DNA from: a virus
IMG/VR virus record: IMGVR_UViG_3300045118_000092
Span: 1 to 28,743 of that record
DNA: 28,743 nt
Direction: 5' to 3' (one strand)
Part shown: in pieces, positions 6,146-24,900 of the stretch
Layout: every line of letters starts with the position of its first letter
Position numbering within the stretch: position 1 is the stretch's first letter
Translations under genes and position numbers: made by a program
The notes under the pieces: model-generated
The model's input: only the letters and a program-made list of their open reading frames with translations
The model's database searches: none
What the model was told of the DNA's origin: nothing

Positions 6146-6945
6146 TACCACTCCCCCACAAACTTAACCAGCTTCAGCTCATCCCACTGGTAATCTTCGT
6201 GAAAGGTCTCGGTCGCGTTATCGCTCTGCATGATCATGTCGGCCACGGTCAATCCGTCCTGCTTGTAGGCATGCAGCTGATTCTCGCCGTAATAGCCGAT
6301 ATTTTGCACCCTTGAGAAAAACGGGGCCACATGCCGGTACTGATGGGCAAAGCGGATCGTGTTTATGGTGCCGTCCTGCAGCGGTGACGCATGCTTGAAG
6401 TAGGGCGCCATGGGCAGTACAAACTGCGTAAAAAAGGACATTTGATTTTCAAAGTACTCATCCCTGATGTAAGGGGCGATGAGCGCATAGTCGGCCGTGT
6501 CGTACATCACCCCCCAGGGGCTGTACCCGTCTACTATGGTAATCTCGTTTTCTTTGTATTCCTGCTTCGTGTAAGGCGCGAAGGACTTGCTTGGATGAAA
6601 GCCGGTAACCGAGAAGCAATGCTCGTTTTTATATTCGTAAGCAGCGAGAATAAAATCAATGAAATCAGCCGACACATAGATGTCATCCTCGACCACTATC
6701 ACGCGGTCATATTTCTCTTTTTCAAAGAGCTCTTTGATTCCGGACAGGATGTTTTTGTTCAGGCCAAAACGATTACCGCGTTTTATAACACGAAAATCTT
6801 TCAGCTCGGGAAGCTCATACCCGTCGCCGTCAAGGTAGCAGAACCGATCTACCTTCTCGATATTTCGGCAACGGTTAATCGCCGCCAGCGTCAGCTTGTG
6901 AATCTCCGGCCTCCTGTAGCCGAACGTCACGAGCGCCGTTTTCAT
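6145..6945 (-). CDS. Glycosyltransferase (GT-A fold-like)
   Basis: 266 residues. Starts MKTALVTFGYRRPE, a nucleotide-sugar-binding first strand, and carries VIVVEDDIYVSADF with Glu-Asp-Asp at 86-88 in the position of the metal-binding DxD motif, followed by a VTGFHPSK and SPWGVMY region similar to GNT-I-like/GT2-type transferases. It should transfer a sugar from a nucleotide-sugar donor; donor and acceptor are not predictable. Ribosome-binding site GGAAGGAG before the ATG at 6945. Coupled to the following methyltransferase gene and placed upstream of the packaging genes, an unusual spot that suggests insertion of a surface-modification module into the late operon. Confidence 0.75.
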   Translation of the reverse strand: MKTALVTFGYRRPEIHKLTLAAINRCRNIEKVDRFCYLDGDGYELPELKDFRVIKRGNRFGLNKNILSGIKELFEKEKYDRVIVVEDDIYVSADFIDFILAAYEYKNEHCFSVTGFHPSKSFAPYTKQEYKENEITIVDGYSPWGVMYDTADYALIAPYIRDEYFENQMSFFTQFVLPMAPYFKHASPLQDGTINTIRFAHQYRHVAPFFSRVQNIGYYGENQLHAYKQDGLTVADMIMQSDNATETFHEDYQWDELKLVKFVGEW

Positions 6946-18026: not shown

Positions 18027-18055
18027 TTGACTCTTGATATGCAATGCAATATAGT
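18027..18055 (+). promoter_or_regulatory. Sigma-70 promoter on the plus strand, antisense to the cro operon
   Basis: TTGACT (18027-18032) and TATAGT (18050-18055) with a 17-bp spacer, an excellent sigma-70 match. It faces the repressor gene and lies between the Cro-like gene and the next gene, like PRE or pO (OOP) in lambda. Start of transcription would be about 18062. Confidence 0.6.
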
Positions 18056-18061
18056 TTTAAT

Positions 18062-18148
18062 GAAAGAGGTGATACTGCTTAATGGATGTTACCTGCTTTC
18101 ACTTTTGAAGGGCATTGGATGCTTTGACGGGCTTGCAATGCCCTTTTT
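18062..18148 (+). ncRNA. Candidate ~87-nt antisense small RNA (OOP/PRE-like position)
   Basis: Predicted transcript from the promoter at 18027 to an intrinsic terminator. Hairpin 1: GAAAG-AGGT (18062-18070) pairs with ACCT-G-CTTTC (18091-18100) with a one-base bulge. Hairpin 2: GGGCATTG (18110-18117) pairs with CAATGCCC (18136-18143), followed by TTTTT. It is complementary to the leftward early mRNA between the Cro-like gene and the gene at 17745. A very short reading frame (8 codons) inside is probably not functional. Unproven, but promoter, fold and terminator agree. Confidence 0.5.
18110..18148 (+). terminator. Intrinsic terminator of the plus-strand small transcript
   Basis: Perfect 8-bp stem GGGCATTG/CAATGCCC with an 18-nt loop and five T residues. 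It stops plus-strand transcription just before the antisense of the Cro-like gene. The minus strand has no T-run here. Confidence 0.65.
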
Positions 18149-18174
18149 AAATCAATTCATACAGCCAATCAGTC

Positions 18175-18480: not shown

Positions 18481-19113
18481 ATGAAAATAATATATGAAAA
18501 ACTCATCACGGCAGTCAGGGAAAGATTTAAAACAAACGAAAAAATGACCCAAGAATCATTTGCGGCGCTTTGTGGTCTTACTCAGGGTGGATTGAATAAG
18601 ATACTCACCGGGGAGAGAAGAGAGCCAGACAATGAAACGGTAAGTAAGCTCGTCAAGGGATTAGGAGTCCCGATGACTGAATTTTTGACATTCGAGCCCG
18701 GGGACAATGTTGATATTGCCATCCAACCACGCCGCTATGTGCCGCTTATATCTTGGGTAAATGCTGGGAGGTTTAAGGAAGCTATGGACGAAAATCCAGT
18801 AGGAATTGGAGAGCCTATACCATACGAAGGAACGGATCCACAGGCATTCGCCCTAGTCATTAACGGCGACAGCATGGAGGATGAGTTTTTTGCTGGGGAT
18901 ATTATCATCGTCAGCCCTAATGCTTATTGCAACAGCGGAGACTATTGCGTCGTCAAAATTGGCGACACAGTCTCTTTAAAAAAGGTGATCATGAAAGATG
19001 AAATGGCAGTGCTGCGGCCATTAAATAAGAAGTATGAAGACATTATCATTACAAAGGATGACAAGCATTTTCACATAATAGGCAGGGTTGTTTTTAAACA
19101 AAAGCGATACTGA
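18481..19113 (+). CDS. CI-like repressor: HTH plus S24 (LexA-type) self-cleaving domain
   Basis: 210 residues. N-terminal helix-turn-helix MTQESFAALCGLTQGGLNKIL (22-42) binds operators. C-terminal S24 domain has the Ala95-Gly96 scissile bond (WVNAGRF), nucleophile Ser131 (INGDSMEDEFF) and general base Lys167 (TVSLKK). These are the residues used for RecA-stimulated autocleavage, so the prophage should be induced by DNA damage. It is transcribed divergently from the Cro-like gene, with no leader. This is the lysogeny master regulator. Confidence 0.88.
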   Translation: MKIIYEKLITAVRERFKTNEKMTQESFAALCGLTQGGLNKILTGERREPDNETVSKLVKGLGVPMTEFLTFEPGDNVDIAIQPRRYVPLISWVNAGRFKEAMDENPVGIGEPIPYEGTDPQAFALVINGDSMEDEFFAGDIIIVSPNAYCNSGDYCVVKIGDTVSLKKVIMKDEMAVLRPLNKKYEDIIITKDDKHFHIIGRVVFKQKRY

Positions 19114-19115
19114 TA

Positions 19116-19421
19116 ATGAGAAATTTTTTCAAAGGAGTAACTGTCGTATTTTTCTTCATCGGATTCGCGCTTCCTGCATTTTTTATATTGGCAGTCATTA
19201 CTGCGATTGCTGCTTGTTTTTGTAGTCCGCCTTTCAGGGGCCTTCGGCCAGATGGCAAGCCACGTACGGGTGGGGCATTGGGAGGCTTTTGGGATGGTTT
19301 TGTCACTGGGCTAAAAATGAAGGAATGTCCATATTGTAAAAGTGACATTCCTTTAGACAGTCTTAAATGCCGGCACTGTGGTGAATGGGTTGCAAAAAAA
19401 GATGAATCAAGCACTGAATAG
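19116..19421 (+). CDS. Membrane protein with C-terminal zinc ribbon
   Basis: 101 residues. Hydrophobic N-terminus (about 8-38, VVFFFIGFALPAFFILAVITAIAACF), a Gly/Arg-rich link, then CPYCKSDIPLDSLKCRHCGEW, a double CxxC zinc ribbon. It starts 2 nt after the repressor stop, with no clear ribosome-binding site, so it is probably translated by coupling and expressed in the lysogen. Lysogen-expressed genes of this kind often alter the host envelope or exclude other phages; nothing here proves that. Confidence 0.6.
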   Translation: MRNFFKGVTVVFFFIGFALPAFFILAVITAIAACFCSPPFRGLRPDGKPRTGGALGGFWDGFVTGLKMKECPYCKSDIPLDSLKCRHCGEWVAKKDESSTE

Positions 19422-19438
19422 CTCAATTCATGAAACTT

Positions 19439-19453
19439 AAAAAAAGGGGGGGG
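19439..19453. repeat. A7G8 homopolymer tract in ribosome-binding region
   Basis: Seven A then eight G (G at 19446-19453) directly before the ATG at 19457. The G-run forms the only Shine-Dalgarno-like sequence for the secreted protein. Such a run is prone to slippage, which would shift spacing and the frame of an upstream in-frame ATG (19430). Confidence 0.6.
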
Positions 19454-19456
19454 CTC

Positions 19457-20110
19457 ATGAAGAAGATTTTTGTTGCCGCGCTTGTTTTTGGATTCTGCTC
19501 TACACTTAATGCACAGGAATGCAAAGACTATGGTATGACTATGCAATATTTAGATACCTATGCGGAATCAAATTGGAGCATTTGTTCTGAGACTATTAAA
19601 TTCTCGATAACTGGTGTTTCTGAATCATTTTTACTATGTGATACGCAATTTGCATTTGTGCAAGAAAATAATCAGTTTGAAGTTCGCGATTTTTCATCTG
19701 ATGATTATTCATTTATCCACTTTAACGGAACATTTGATGGATGCGCTAATATAAGACAGGGGGTCACTATTTCTGGATGGGTCGATTCATTCCCTGATTG
19801 GTTCAAGATTGATAGTCCTTTTAGAATTTATTACAGTTATAGTTATGTCGATATAAATGGATCACCAATTTCTACCACAACTTCTGTCTGTGAATGCGAG
19901 TATATTTGTCCTGCAGAGCTTATATATGGATGCGATTCGCCTGAAGCGAGCAAATTGAGATTTATTCGCGACAATGTTTTAAGGAAGACGCCAGAAGGCC
20001 AGGAATTGATCAGACTTTATTACTTATGGAGCCCTGTAATAGCTCAAATTATTGACAATGATCATAAATTTAAGGACGACATGAAAAGAATTATCGATAA
20101 TTTATTGTAA
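19457..20110 (+). CDS. Secreted protein with C-terminal CFI-box-like domain, lysogenic-conversion candidate
   Basis: 217 residues. A signal peptide (MKKIFVAALVFGFCSTLNAQ) predicts export. The middle is beta-rich with several Cys (disulfide potential). The C-terminal ~70 residues, CPAELIYG followed by SPEASKLRFIRDNVLRKTPEGQ..YYLWSPVIAQII, match the layout of the CFI-box C-terminal domain (CFIATAAYG...LRxFRD...YYxxSPxxA). AT-rich and expressed on the repressor side, it is a typical moron. ATG 19457 chosen for the signal peptide and the G-rich ribosome-binding tract. Function unknown. Confidence 0.6.
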   Translation: MKKIFVAALVFGFCSTLNAQECKDYGMTMQYLDTYAESNWSICSETIKFSITGVSESFLLCDTQFAFVQENNQFEVRDFSSDDYSFIHFNGTFDGCANIRQGVTISGWVDSFPDWFKIDSPFRIYYSYSYVDINGSPISTTTSVCECEYICPAELIYGCDSPEASKLRFIRDNVLRKTPEGQELIRLYYLWSPVIAQIIDNDHKFKDDMKRIIDNLL

Positions 20111-20141
20111 CATTAACTGTTTAATTAATATATTCTTTTAA

Positions 20142-20170
20142 AAATAGCGCCACTTGAGCGCTATTTCTTT
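20142..20170 (+). terminator. Intrinsic terminator after the lysogeny genes
   Basis: Perfect 9-bp stem AAATAGCGC (20142-20150) / GCGCTATTT (20158-20166) with a 7-nt loop, followed by a short T-rich stretch. Ends the repressor-moron transcript and separates it from the recombination operon. A-rich on the other side, so it may act in both directions. Confidence 0.65.
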
Positions 20171-20201
20171 GCCGAAAAATACCCCATCTGGAATTATTTT
20201 C

Positions 20202-20229
20202 TTGACTTACCTATGGCATCTGGTATAAT
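20202..20229 (+). promoter_or_regulatory. Sigma-70 promoter of the recombination/integration operon
   Basis: TTGACT (20202-20207), 16-bp spacer, TATAAT (20224-20229). It starts a transcript at about 20236 that begins with a long structured leader and continues through the recombination genes to the integrase. Confidence 0.7.
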
Positions 20230-20235
20230 CATCCC

Positions 20236-20640
20236 AACAATCAGACAGGGGCTGTTATGATCGTTGAATTGCTTAACCACAACCAGCAGATGAGACCGGC
20301 ACAAAGCGCAGCCTATAAACGGTATGCCAGTAACAGCCCCTTGCCGGTCTCATCTTTTTGTTTTCTACCACTGGCGGCTGCGGCTGCCCGGCGCGTGAAG
20401 GCGCTCAAGCATAGCGTACCCCAGAGGACGCACAACGCTTGCGTACAACGGCTGAATGTGGTGACGCGGTAAGCAGTAAAGCTCTTTGAAATGGGGATAG
20501 GCGTCAATAGCCTACGGGCGCAGTTATAACCGGTAACTGACTTCATCGCCTGTCCCCTACTAACCGGGCCTAACAAGCCCAAGGACGGTGGCGGGGTGGT
20601 CCCTCTCCCCATCCCGCCACCTGATTTTAAAAGGAGAAGA
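20236..20640 (+). ncRNA. Candidate large structured leader RNA (about 400 nt, no convincing gene)
   Basis: No credible coding region fills this 413-bp gap; a 71-codon frame from 20257 is low-complexity and passes through the paired regions. Perfect complementary pairs seen: 20248-20257 with 20331-20340 (10 bp) and 20289-20301 with 20342-20354 (13 bp, followed by TTTTT), interleaved; ACGCA/TGCGT at 20428-20444; an 11-bp stem 20493-20503/20547-20557 (one G-U) enclosing a GCC-UACG-GGC hairpin (20510-20519) and CAGTTA/TAACTG (20521-20539); GGGC/GCCC at 20566-20580; and an 11-bp stem 20587-20597/20611-20621 just before the first ribosome-binding site. It could be a regulatory leader or a free RNA. 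No known class recognised. Confidence 0.45.
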
Positions 20641-20642
20641 GT

Positions 20643-20828
20643 GTGGCAGCACCGCAGTGGTGGTTAGAGCGCGAGAAGCACATGGCAAGGGATGAAGGCA
20701 ACCGGGATCGGCAATGGTCAGATTATGACGATGACCGGCACCAACGGAAGCCGAGACGGATCCCCCGATACAGCGAAGAGGGGCTGTATGAGTCAGCTTA
20801 CACCGAAAGCGAGGATGACAATGAATGA
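20643..20828 (+). CDS. Small charged hypothetical protein
   Basis: 61 residues from GTG 20643 with AAAGGAG 7 nt upstream, immediately after the structured leader. Very rich in Arg, Asp and Glu (DDDRHQRKPRRIPRYSEE), probably disordered. First gene of the recombination operon; overlaps the next gene by 8 nt. Function unknown. Confidence 0.55.
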   Translation: MAAPQWWLEREKHMARDEGNRDRQWSDYDDDRHQRKPRRIPRYSEEGLYESAYTESEDDNE

Positions 20829-21036
20829 CATTAAAAACGTAATGGGACAGCTTACTGAGGCACAGCAAAACATCGTAAAGGCAGGGGCGCAGCTTGAAGC
20901 GATGCACGCCCTGCTGCAAAAAGAGCTGGACGAGACAAAGCGCAGGACACTTCACTTTATGCACCACCTGGATGAGGTATTCGGCGCCATTAATGTCAAC
21001 CGGGACCAGGTGCGGGAGGCGGTGAAAAACTTATGA
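20821..21036 (+). CDS. Small helical hypothetical protein
   Basis: 71 residues (MNDIKNVMGQLTEAQQNIVK...), almost all helix with coiled-coil potential. ATG 20821 has GAGG at 6 nt; an in-frame ATG at 20815 is less well placed. Overlaps the neighbouring genes at both ends. Function unknown; position suggests an early accessory role. Confidence 0.6.
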   Translation: MNDIKNVMGQLTEAQQNIVKAGAQLEAMHALLQKELDETKRRTLHFMHHLDEVFGAINVNRDQVREAVKNL

Positions 21037-21251
21037 AGTGCCCGAAATGCGGAAGCGTAATGGATGAGCACAAGGCAAAGCTGGACGGGGTAATCGCGTT
21101 TGACTGCCGGGAGTGCGGCGAGTGGTTCTTGGGCAATCAGGATAAGGGCGATGCTGACCAGGTACTGACGGCGGTGTCAAGCGCGGTGGGGCTGCTATTT
21201 TGCGCCGCCTGCTGGTATGCCGCATTCGTGCTGCTTGCGCCACTGTTTTAA
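21033..21251 (+). CDS. Zinc-ribbon membrane mini-protein
   Basis: 72 residues. MKCPKCGSV...FDCRECGEW forms a zinc ribbon, followed by a C-terminal transmembrane segment (about 49-70, VGLLFCAACWYAAFVLLAPL). ATGA overlap with the preceding gene. The mirror-image layout (membrane then ribbon) occurs in the gene at 19116; relation is unknown. Confidence 0.6.
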   Translation: MKCPKCGSVMDEHKAKLDGVIAFDCRECGEWFLGNQDKGDADQVLTAVSSAVGLLFCAACWYAAFVLLAPLF

Positions 21252-21276
21252 AACACCATCAAAAGGGAGAGAGACT

Positions 21277-22188
21277 ATGACACACTTAGCGAAAAGAGAC
21301 AGCGAATTGCCGGCGGTGGTGACTGAAAAGATCGCCCAGCTCGCCAAGCAGGAGGGCATCCCGGTAAGCGGCCTTAACATCCTGGGCGGTAAGACCTACA
21401 TTAACGTCACCGGCCTTGACTGCAAGGTGCAGAATAAGTGCGCCGATGAGCACCTGGTATTAAAAGGCATCGACTTAAAAGAGCTGACACCCGAAGGTGA
21501 AAACCTTTTTGGCTTCAAGGCGACCATCCAATTTTTCGACCGGGAGAATTTTCAGAAAGCATTGAAAGCATGCACCGAGGTCAATAAGGACGTGCTGGAC
21601 AAGCTGGAATCAACATTTACCTACAGCTTTTCGGACATCGGCCTGGCATCCCCCGACACCTGCGAGGGGATCGCCTATGAGTATGTCTATGATCAACAGA
21701 AGGGGCGAAAGGTAAAGGGCAAGCTGCTGAAAGAAAACGTGATTATGATGGCGTCACGCCGCGCCACTAACAGGGCAAAACGGGAGGCAACGGGCACCGG
21801 GCTTACTTCGCTTGATGAAATGCCTATGGAAGCGGCAGAAAGCAACGGCAAGCCGCATGTCGAGCCGCCCCGGGCAAAATCAGCGGCACCAGCAGTACAG
21901 ATGAAACCAGAGCCAGCTGCTGATCCCGATGCCGAGATGCGCGAAACCTTGCGATCCATGATGAAAGACCTGGCCGGTGAGGACGGTAACTGCAATGACC
22001 TGCTTGAGCAATACAGCGGATTTGAGGGGAAAGATGGCCAGATTAAGGCGGTGCGCAATTTAAAAGACCTGAAAGGCAAATGGCTGCAGTCCACATACGG
22101 CAAAGTAAAGAAGGACTGGGAATCCGCCGGATTTAATGCACAACCGATTGATAGTGAGCCGATCGATGAAGATGAGGTGCCGTTCTAA
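21277..22188 (+). CDS. Probable single-strand annealing / recombination protein with SSB-like tail
   Basis: 303 residues from ATG 21277 (GGGAGAGAGAC upstream). Residues 1-180 contain GLNILGGKTYINVTGLD and a later basic helix ASRRATNRAKREATG, of the kind found in phage annealing proteins (Sak/ERF/RecT-like functions), but I cannot place it in one family. A Pro/Ala/Glu-rich linker leads to a helical domain, and the very end DEDEVPF copies the acidic tip by which SSB recruits partners. It is coupled (TAATG) to a RecB-like nuclease, the usual exonuclease-annealase pairing. Function inferred from context. Confidence 0.55.
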   Translation: MTHLAKRDSELPAVVTEKIAQLAKQEGIPVSGLNILGGKTYINVTGLDCKVQNKCADEHLVLKGIDLKELTPEGENLFGFKATIQFFDRENFQKALKACTEVNKDVLDKLESTFTYSFSDIGLASPDTCEGIAYEYVYDQQKGRKVKGKLLKENVIMMASRRATNRAKREATGTGLTSLDEMPMEAAESNGKPHVEPPRAKSAAPAVQMKPEPAADPDAEMRETLRSMMKDLAGEDGNCNDLLEQYSGFEGKDGQIKAVRNLKDLKGKWLQSTYGKVKKDWESAGFNAQPIDSEPIDEDEVPF

Positions 22189-22784
22189 TGATTACCTATA
22201 ATGACGAAACGCACACCTATGCCCTGGACGGCATCCGGCTTAAAAGCGTGACGCAGATTTTAGACATCGCCGGCCTGTCAAACTATTCAAACATACCGGA
22301 GGACATACTTGAGCGTGCCAGATTATTCGGAACCGCGGTTCATGACATGACGTACCTGTATGACAACAACAACCTTGATACCGAGTCACTTGATCCAGCC
22401 CTGGTCCCATACCTTGCCGCATGGCGCGCCTTCCTGCAGGTGACCGGCTGGACAACCGAAGCGATTGAGCAGCTGGTGTATTCGCGCCGATACCTCTACG
22501 CGGGCCGGTACGACCGCAAAGGGATTTACAATGGCAAGGCCACCTTGCTTGACATCAAGACCGGCGTTAAGAATAAGGCCACCGTAAAGCTGGCAGGCAT
22601 CCAGCTCTCCGGATATGAAATTGCGCACAATGAATTAAACGGGGCGGCAACGATAAAGCAGCGGCTCTGTGTATGGCTCGGCGGGGACGGAAAGTTTAAG
22701 ATGGAGATATACACAGACAAAAGCGACCAGGCAAGGTTTTTGGCGGCGCTGACAATCGCAAACGTAAAGGAGGAGATGAAATGA
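22188..22784 (+). CDS. RecB/Cas4-like PD-(D/E)XK exonuclease
   Basis: 198 residues with the full motif set: LFGTAVHDM (His52), YAGRYDRKG (Asp109), TLLDIKTG (Asp122, Lys124) and IQLSGYEIA (Gln139, Tyr143). This fits PDDEXK_1-type nucleases that resect DNA ends and work with an annealing protein in phage recombination. TAATG overlap with the upstream annealing-protein candidate and ATGA overlap downstream. No Cys cluster for an iron-sulfur centre, so not a Cas4 proper. Confidence 0.8.
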   Translation: MITYNDETHTYALDGIRLKSVTQILDIAGLSNYSNIPEDILERARLFGTAVHDMTYLYDNNNLDTESLDPALVPYLAAWRAFLQVTGWTTEAIEQLVYSRRYLYAGRYDRKGIYNGKATLLDIKTGVKNKATVKLAGIQLSGYEIAHNELNGAATIKQRLCVWLGGDGKFKMEIYTDKSDQARFLAALTIANVKEEMK

Positions 22785-23470
22785 ATACGGCGGAGACAAT
22801 ACAGATTGATACCAGCAGGGTTGACGAGAAGGAATCAGAAGTGCTTGCGCTGGTAACGAGTGCGGGTGGCGTTGCCATTACAACGCCGGAGCAGCTTGAA
22901 GACGCCAATGGCTGCCTGATAAAAATAAAGGAAAAGATAAAAGAACTTGATGAAGACAGAAAGGATTTAACCAGACCGATTGACGGCCTTAAGAAAAAGA
23001 TCATGGATAAATACAAACCATGGCTTGACAAGCTCGACCAGGCCAAGGGTGTTCTGACCAAGGCGATCATGGCCTATACCGATGAGCAGGAAAAAAAGCG
23101 CCGGGAGCTGCAAGATAAGCTGCAACGGGAAGCGGATGAGAAGGCCAGGAAAGAGCAGGAACGGCTGCAGGCCAGGGCTGACAAGTGGGAAGAAAAAGGG
23201 AATACGGATAAGGCAGAGGCGTTGCGTGAGAAGGCCGATGAAGTCGTGCCTGACGCAGTGCCGGTAGTGCTTACCATGCCGACACCGAAAGGTCTGTCTT
23301 ACCGGGATAACTGGAAGGCGGTAGTGGTGGATATTAACATGGTGCCGCGTGAATACATGATCCCCGACCAGAAGGCGCTTGATAAGATCATGCAGGCAAC
23401 CAAAGGCACCGTTAAAATCCCCGGCATCAAGGCGGTCAATGAAAAGGTGCTTATGAGCCGGAGTGCTTAA
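22781..23470 (+). CDS. Coiled-coil phage protein of the recombination operon
   Basis: 229 residues. Residues about 40-150 are long helices (KIKEKIKELDEDRKDLTRPI, then a highly charged QEKKRRELQDKLQREADEKA stretch). The C-terminus (LSYRDNWKAVVVDINMVPRE..., GTVKIPGIKAVNE) is a small globular part. This kind of protein is common beside phage exonuclease/annealase genes. ATGA overlap with the nuclease gene and AAAGGAGG upstream. Its exact role is unknown; a DNA-binding or Gam-like role is possible. Confidence 0.65.
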   Translation: MNTAETIQIDTSRVDEKESEVLALVTSAGGVAITTPEQLEDANGCLIKIKEKIKELDEDRKDLTRPIDGLKKKIMDKYKPWLDKLDQAKGVLTKAIMAYTDEQEKKRRELQDKLQREADEKARKEQERLQARADKWEEKGNTDKAEALREKADEVVPDAVPVVLTMPTPKGLSYRDNWKAVVVDINMVPREYMIPDQKALDKIMQATKGTVKIPGIKAVNEKVLMSRSA

Positions 23471-23508
23471 GCGACGCCGCCATGAATCACTTGACCTCGC
23501 ATAAACAG

Positions 23509-23547
23509 CATGATATGCCATATTCAGAAGGGGTGCGGCATATCATG
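23509..23547. repeat. 11-bp inverted repeat over the likely integrase start
   Basis: CATGATATGCC (23509-23519) and GGCATATCATG (23537-23547) are perfect inverted copies, 17 nt apart. The right arm ends with the ATG that is the better integrase start, and the loop holds AAGGGG. Formed in mRNA, the hairpin would hide the start codon; as DNA it would suit a dimeric regulator. Confidence 0.6.
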
Positions 23548-24648
23548 GACAAGATCATAAAGGGCGTCTCTAAGGTAGGGCATGACCTGTTTGACGTATT
23601 TGTCTACTACCCTGCCTATGGCCGGACGGTAAGGCTCACCCATGACCGCCGCGGCGAGCGGATCCGCTCCGAGACAAAAGCCTATGAGGTGCGCTACGAG
23701 GCTTTAACCCGCATTAACAACCACACCTTTGATCCCCGCGATTACCGGAAAGAGAGGCCGCACACCTTTGACAACGCCATTACCGCCTGGCTTGACCGCA
23801 ACCTGGGCAGCTACAGCCCAAAATCACAGAAAGACTACCGCAACCGGATCAATGGCGTGATTGTGCCATTCTTTCAGGACATGGACATCAGGGACGTAAA
23901 CGGCAAGGTGTTGAGTGATTTCGTCCACCACGTCAGGCAAGGCCGCACCAACAAGACCGTCAACAACCTTGTAACCATCGTCAAGGCGTTTTATAAAGAC
24001 ATGTTCTACCAGCAGGCGATAAAGCAGATGCCGATGTTTCCCCGTGCACTCACCGTGCAGAATAAGGCTGTTGCCTGGTGCCCGCTAAATGTGCTTGAAA
24101 GAATAGTGCAGGAAGTGGAAGACAGCCAGGTGCGGGAGGCTATTCTTACCGCCAGGCTGCAATGGCTGCGGGTGGGAGAGGTACGGGGGCTGCGGTGGGA
24201 AGACATTGACTTTGACGCAAACCAAATGACGGTTAGAAGCTCGTTTTCAAGCAGTGTGTTCAGGGAGACAACCAAGACCGGAAAGCAGACGGTAAAGCAC
24301 CTGCATTCAACGGTAAAGGGAATGCTGGCCGGCCGTGTCGGGCATGGAAAAGCATTCGTGTTTACCTACCGGGGTAAGCCGTTGTATGAAAGCCTGTTGA
24401 GGAAACGGTTTAATGCGGCAAGGGACAAGGCGGGGTTCTCAAGCTCGCTGACCTTATACGGCGCAACCAGGCACAGCGGGGCGACGGAAGGCTATATTTC
24501 AACCGGTGATATTAGGAAGGTGCAAAAGGCGCTGGGGCATACCGATATAAGGACAACCATGAAATATGAGCACGCAACCGACACAAAGGCGGTCATTGAG
24601 CCGCAGGCGGAAGTGAGGGAGATAAATGAAAAAATCAAAACGCGATAA
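23545..24648 (+). CDS. int: Tyrosine-family integrase
   Basis: Site-specific recombinase that inserts and excises the phage at att. 367 residues from ATG 23545 (388 from an ATG at 23482 that lacks a ribosome-binding site). By numbering from 23482: SAM-like core-binding region about 93-190, then catalytic Arg230 (LRVGEVRGLRW), a Lys near 265-268, Arg330 in YGATRHSGAT (the first His of HxxR is replaced, a known variation), His353 (LGHTDI) and nucleophile Tyr362 (MKYEHA). The N-terminal ~70 residues would bind arm sites. Directly followed by attP. Confidence 0.9.
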   Translation: MDKIIKGVSKVGHDLFDVFVYYPAYGRTVRLTHDRRGERIRSETKAYEVRYEALTRINNHTFDPRDYRKERPHTFDNAITAWLDRNLGSYSPKSQKDYRNRINGVIVPFFQDMDIRDVNGKVLSDFVHHVRQGRTNKTVNNLVTIVKAFYKDMFYQQAIKQMPMFPRALTVQNKAVAWCPLNVLERIVQEVEDSQVREAILTARLQWLRVGEVRGLRWEDIDFDANQMTVRSSFSSSVFRETTKTGKQTVKHLHSTVKGMLAGRVGHGKAFVFTYRGKPLYESLLRKRFNAARDKAGFSSSLTLYGATRHSGATEGYISTGDIRKVQKALGHTDIRTTMKYEHATDTKAVIEPQAEVREINEKIKTR

Positions 24649-24867: not shown

Positions 24868-24900
24868 CCGCCGCGGGTTCGACTCCCGCCGCCTCCACCA
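24868..24900 (+). other. Putative attP core: 3' end of a tmRNA gene (ssrA)
   Basis: The 3' part of a tRNA-like molecule without its 5' part: T-stem GCGGG (24873-24877), T-loop TTCGACT, CCCGC (24885-24889), acceptor 3' strand CGCCTCC (24890-24896), A73, CCA. U at position 70 and A73 fit alanine charging, and the T-arm/acceptor sequence is characteristic of tmRNA. A phage copy of the 3' end restores the gene upon integration. No 5' tmRNA body lies upstream, so this is att rather than a gene. tRNA-Ala is a less likely source. Confidence 0.78.

Follow-up and report, generated by a model that had tools for sequence, protein, structure and literature searches.

Genomic context and promoter of the leader

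What occupies the roughly 400 nt that separate a near-consensus promoter from the first gene of a phage recombination and integration operon? We addressed this question for positions 20236-20640 of the IMG/VR record IMGVR_UViG_3300045118_000092, which was analysed over its full length of 28,743 nt (hereafter, the window). This 28.7 kb virus record is that of a temperate phage whose minus strand encodes the structural and replication functions. On the plus strand, upstream of the leader promoter, a LexA-like repressor is encoded at 18481-19113, and a terminator-like hairpin (20142-20166) stands between the repressor region and the promoter. Two genes found 3' of the repressor (19116-20110, plus strand), of which the second encodes a CFI-box C-terminal domain, have atypical codon usage and are probably lysogenic accessory genes. 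The 3' boundary of the leader agrees with the first-pass annotation: it is the ribosome-binding site (RBS) of a small gene, with a Shine-Dalgarno (SD) sequence AAGGAG at 20631-20636 (plus strand) followed by a GTG start at 20643. This first operon gene (20643..20828, plus strand) encodes a 61 aa arginine- and acid-rich product, has coding-like codon usage (score 0.284), and retrieved no family in Pfam, PHROGs, and NCBIfam searches. The remaining operon (21277..24648, plus strand) encodes an exonuclease (phrog_298), a phrog_10477 protein, and a tyrosine integrase, and the operon position of the single-strand annealing protein is held by a protein of no recognised family. An attP candidate with a tmRNA-like 3' end, GCGGGTTCGACTCCCGCCGCCTCCACCA, is found 3' of the integrase at 24872-24900; of 150 genomes from a single phylum, 4 carry it exactly, and the sequence makes integration of the phage into a tmRNA gene likely.

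The proposed sigma-70 promoter was confirmed as a near-consensus element, TTGACT-16-TATAAT (20202..20229, plus strand), which matches 11 of 12 consensus positions, carries an extended -10, and has a predicted start near 20236. When 19000-22500 was scanned for promoters, this was the only 11/12 match, and weaker matches occurred in the number expected by chance. The divergent early promoter that adjoins the repressor gene (18422-18394, minus strand) carries the same TTGACTTACNTA at its -35 and the same GGTATAAT at its -10 as the leader promoter. Because both elements are shared, the two early promoters are probably under the same repressor, and their sequences point to a probable common operator. 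Also in this region, amid the early minus-strand genes, a plus-strand element at 18027-18150 consists of a promoter (TTGACT-17-TATAGT) and, about 55 nt on, GGGCATTG...CAATGCCC-TTTTT; this may be a second small RNA.

Fold and coding potential of the whole leader

The first-pass annotation had described the leader as a large structured RNA without a credible gene, and both parts of this description held. The predicted fold of 20236-20640 has an energy of -162.2 kcal/mol, against -133.5 +/- 6.6 in dinucleotide shuffles (z -4.4, reached by 0 of 100), and the portions 5' and 3' of the terminator described below each fold strongly when taken separately (z near -3; -2.9 and -3.1). There are three exact Watson-Crick stems of at least 8 bp (14, 11, and 9 bp), and to arrive at the annotated "seven exact stems" one must also count shorter ones and those containing G-U pairs. 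No convincing direct repeats were found in the leader, and a role as an origin or iteron array was rejected on these grounds.

The one frame of note, 71 codons at 20257..20472 (plus strand), spans the terminator and has a codon score of -0.029, a value found among off-frame windows and exceeded by 99% of true gene windows; the genes that directly follow the leader do have coding-like usage. Pfam, PHROGs, NCBIfam, and phage DNA yielded no relative of its 71 aa translation. We would like to note that the codon-usage test is not absolute, since the two accessory-looking upstream genes also score low. Nevertheless, 20257-20472 is probably not a normal gene, and it may be a leader frame.

An intrinsic terminator interlocked with a second stem

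The strongest element of the leader, an intrinsic terminator at 20288-20365, was absent from the first-pass annotation. Its 5' strand, arm B (AGATGAGACCGGCA, 20288..20301, plus strand), is an exact 14-bp complement of 20342-20355, and arm B' (TGCCGGTCTCATCT) together with the T-tract (TTTTGTTTTC) occupies 20342..20365 (plus strand), about 120 nt from the transcription start. The perfect 14-bp stem is thus followed by TTTTTGTTTT, the letters of the T-tract also being given as TTTTGTTTT. A stable GC-containing stem with an immediate U-tract, located between a promoter and the first gene, is what defines an intrinsic terminator or attenuator, and a 14-bp stem occurred in 0 of 1,000 shuffles of the leader. 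The loop is unusually large at 40 nt, and a standard terminator scan overlooks the element because the loop limit of the scan is 8 nt. The first-pass annotation had named an attenuator as one alternative for this leader, and an intrinsic terminator within the leader supports that alternative.

The terminator is accompanied by a second long stem. Arm A (AGGGGCTGTTA, 20247..20257, plus strand), in which an RBS-like AGGGG is followed by the first letter of the ATG at 20257, is an exact 11-bp complement of arm A' (TAACAGCCCCT, 20331..20341, plus strand), and A' directly adjoins B'. The arms therefore follow each other in the order A-B-A'-B', as in a pseudoknot. Among 1,000 shuffles one had interlocked stems of 9 bp or more, and the interlocked arrangement together with a T-tract occurs at this site alone in 1.99 Mb of sequence (the window and all fetched loci, both strands). 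When the nascent RNA was folded to 20341, the best fold had A paired with A' (-28.5), and when it was folded to 20356 the terminator was best (-37.9). In the same nascent-RNA folding, the probability that the upstream SD is unpaired falls from 0.54 to 0.12 once A' emerges. The energy models used do not score pseudoknots, and these nascent-RNA folds exclude them; from the arm order we infer that A:A' and B:B' could form simultaneously.

A boxA-like site and predicted masking of the first SD

In the minimum-energy fold of the whole leader, a long-range helix (UUGCUUA/ACCACA/CAGC at 20269..20287 with GCUG/UGUGGU/UAAGCAG at 20451..20476, plus strand) encloses the terminator region. Directly 3' of it lies a boxA-like element, GCTCTTTGAAA (20481..20491, plus strand), with one mismatch to GYTCTTTAANA, the published gamma-proteobacterial consensus (PMC5725501). 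A match this good was obtained in 117 of 5,000 shuffled leaders (2.3%). A second copy of GCTCTTTGAAA at 6720-6730 (minus strand) was dismissed as chance, as it lies inside a coding frame. Further 3' the predicted fold contains a branched domain at 20493..20557 (plus strand), closed by an 11-bp helix (GGGGAUAGGCG/CGCCUGUCCCC, 20493-20503 with 20547-20557), and a 13-bp hairpin (GGTGGCGGGGTGG/CCATCCCGCCACC, 20587..20621, plus strand) directly 5' of the RBS. A TAGGC/GCCTA inverted repeat is also present in the leader sequence 3' of the boxA-like site.

In the minimum-energy folds the strand 20481-20491 pairs with AUUUUAAAAGGAG, the SD region of the first gene, and forcing this strand to be single-stranded raises the mean SD exposure from 0.51 to 0.82. 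Within these folding models, boxA and anti-SD arm may thus be rival interpretations of the strand, or the strand may serve in both capacities. Because it lies downstream of the terminator, a boxA here cannot help polymerase past it, and boxA control of the leader's own terminator was rejected on this order.

Search for relatives of the leader

No homologue of the leader was retrieved by distant blastn against phages, plasmids, and E. coli genomes (for phages also with E up to 10), and weak blastn matches clustered at 20367-20411 look like GC-rich chance. An 18-mer around the boxA-like site yielded no leader homologue in IMG/VR. Searches by way of the flanking proteins (the annealing-position protein, the exonuclease, the integrase, and both small downstream genes) likewise led to none, nor did comparison of the leader with 47 records carrying exonuclease or integrase relatives. 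Searching the annealing-position protein against 78 genomes of an order with an attP-matching tmRNA end also reached no leader homologue. The first-pass annotation had compared the leader with the large phage RNAs GOLLD and ROOL. This comparison failed: no Rfam family reached threshold in the window, a relaxed search of 20150-20750 returned only matches with E of at least 1.5 to unrelated families, which is chance level, and the leader, as a 5' UTR running up to a start codon, is no free-standing RNA.

Phage relatives of the exonuclease were found at about 40% identity. A distant relative, Shewanella phage QDWS, has the same order of repressor, leader, RecT-like protein, exonuclease, and phrog_10477-like protein, and its leader of about 450 nt between the repressor and the recombination genes contains a perfect-consensus boxA (GCTCTTTAAAA). 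An upstream boxA-like motif was present at only a few of the exonuclease-relative loci, so boxA is no rule for such operons. The QDWS leader matches no Rfam family at gathering score. It does match the Burkholderia phages Magia, BgManors32, and Bcep176, as well as 37 of 38 IMG/VR contigs that had been collected by a hairpin-boxA pattern.

These sequences share a Burkholderia-type phage leader RNA of about 250-300 nt, in which hairpins are followed by a boxA (GGCGGAWCGYTCTYTAAC) and then by modules ending in a strongly covarying GC-rich hairpin (L002:1107-1393, L006:2478-2762, L007:2476-2752, L008:2304-2552, and L056-L093 except L078). In one hairpin of the family 10 of 18 pairs are changed on both sides, 98% of cells are paired, and the covariation score was reached in 0 of 500 shuffles. 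The boxA core is invariant in the family, which was partly gathered by its boxA pattern. The RNA is likewise present in 5 genomes out of 59 from the genus to which the Paraburkholderia genome (G040) behind locus L049 belongs. It matches no Rfam family; two subtypes can be told apart, and the family is apparently undescribed. Two records with this leader, OK094664.1 ('Hujiaoplasma phage zrk29-1') and OP650936.1 (QDWS), are both 47,902 long with identical leaders, and the presence of a Burkholderia-type leader RNA makes the stated host of both look doubtful.

The window leader resembles the Burkholderia-phage leader RNA in being a large structured RNA with a boxA or, in the window, a boxA-like site, and the leaders of QDWS, Magia, and BgManors32 hold a similar position, ahead of early or recombination genes. 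In contrast, the boxA of the Burkholderia-phage leader lies near its 5' end, whereas the boxA-like site of the window is 3' of the terminator, and the sequences do not match. Covariance models of the two Burkholderia modules (R1 and R2), run with filters off, had no match in the window leader; their best window scores were at chance level and outside the leader. As neither model matched, the window leader is not a member of the Burkholderia family. From that family it is clear that other phages conserve a structured, boxA-led leader at a position of this kind, which is no proof of function in the window.

Comparison with known regulatory leaders

The lambda PL leader (nutL, N) is similar to the window leader in that an early operon under repressor control, probable in the window, begins with a boxA (boxA-like in the window) and structured RNA between it and the SD of a small first gene, and in lambda the Nus factors and N repress translation of N (PMC5725501). 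In contrast, the window leader has its intrinsic terminator 5' of the boxA-like site and is unrelated in sequence; no homologue of the boxB-bound N was found, the first gene having no known family and no N-family match in protein family searches. The 5' UTR of suhB also has a boxA near the SD, which controls translation and Rho termination in an autoregulation by Nus factors (PMC5725501); the window differs in being a phage early operon with a boxA-like site one mismatch off and a predicted pairing between this site and the SD. Gifsy-1 IsrK and P4 CI/seqA share with the layout predicted for the window a phage promoter, an early terminator that yields a short RNA, a read-through mRNA, and a small ORF whose RBS is hidden in that mRNA (PMC4825925), but the window has no recognised antirepressor gene downstream and no sequence match to them. 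Finally, putL and putR of HK022 are structured RNAs just 3' of early phage promoters that govern termination (PMC9378689). They are about 70 nt long and bind the RNAP zinc-binding domain through two stem-loops (PMC9378689), whereas the window leader is 400 nt long and begins with a terminator.

A model for the leader and its alternatives

The reading we favour, with somewhat better than even confidence, is that 20236-20640 is the 5' leader of a repressor-controlled early recombination and integration operon, acting as a transcription attenuator and a translational checkpoint. Upon release of the repressor, most transcripts would stop near 20361 and yield a short RNA of about 125 nt, which is the most likely step of the model. 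As the nascent RNA emerges, A:A' would form before a switch to, or the addition of, B:B'. Because the terminator is 5' of the boxA-like site, it must be passed otherwise, by leakiness or by a ribosome that starts at the ATG at 20257 before A' appears; such a ribosome would cover B and allow polymerase to read through, so the terminator may respond to translation or another early signal. The order of these pairings and their coupling to a ribosome are the least certain steps. On the read-through RNA, NusB/S10 bound to the boxA-like site could plausibly shield the untranslated leader from Rho and, by blocking the pairing of that strand with the SD, open the first gene. A more elaborate version, which we consider quite improbable, has a pseudoknotted terminator-riboregulator that couples exposure of the leader RBS to termination, joined to a Nus-dependent domain that couples antitermination to SD unmasking, all without a phage antiterminator protein.

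The structure 3' of the terminator might instead serve translational control alone, with 20481-20491 as an anti-SD arm and no involvement of Nus factors. This is compatible with an attenuator, and we regard it as possible but less likely than not. The predicted pairing with AUUUUAAAAGGAG, the 2.3% of shuffles that hold a one-mismatch boxA, and the identical 11-mer that occurs a single time within a minus-strand coding region all speak for it, while the perfect boxA in the same-type leader of QDWS and the invariant boxA core of the Burkholderia leaders, a family partly gathered by its boxA pattern, speak against it. The promoter could also mainly produce the terminated RNA of about 125 nt, which would act in trans on phage or host targets with read-through into the operon secondary. 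The short RNA does have its own promoter and terminator, and in Gifsy-1 the terminated short RNA and the read-through mRNA both function (PMC4825925). This nevertheless appears unlikely, as the duplex of the short RNA with its own downstream leader is no better than in shuffles (z 0.3), seven other early-region targets gave no excess complementarity over shuffles (z 0.0 to +0.9), and arms A and B have no additional copies above chance elsewhere in the window. A trans antisense action of the IsrK/P4 type likewise finds no support in these shuffle-like duplex energies.

It is very unlikely, in our judgement, that 20257-20472 is a real 71 aa gene in which the stems are incidental. The frame is open over 71 codons and has AGGGG 5 nt before its ATG, but it contains the terminator with its T-tract, its codon usage is non-coding, and no homologue was found in the libraries or phage DNA. 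We give equally little credence to the leader being functionless GC-rich debris of recombination between phage modules. With no homologue there is no evidence of selection, which would suit debris; the fold nevertheless beats every shuffle, the terminator and its interlocked stem are far above chance, and the layout from promoter to RBS is ordered.

A structured regulatory leader is a reasonable reading. It is of a known kind, the leader of a phage early operon, with an unusual interlocked terminator. To our knowledge, little is understood of how non-lambdoid temperate phages control their early transcription once the repressor has been released. Here the recombination and integration genes are preceded by an interlocked terminator and a boxA-like site, which make a concrete candidate for such early control, and the conserved, covarying boxA-led RNA of the Burkholderia phages hints that early operons of phages may more generally begin with large structured leaders.
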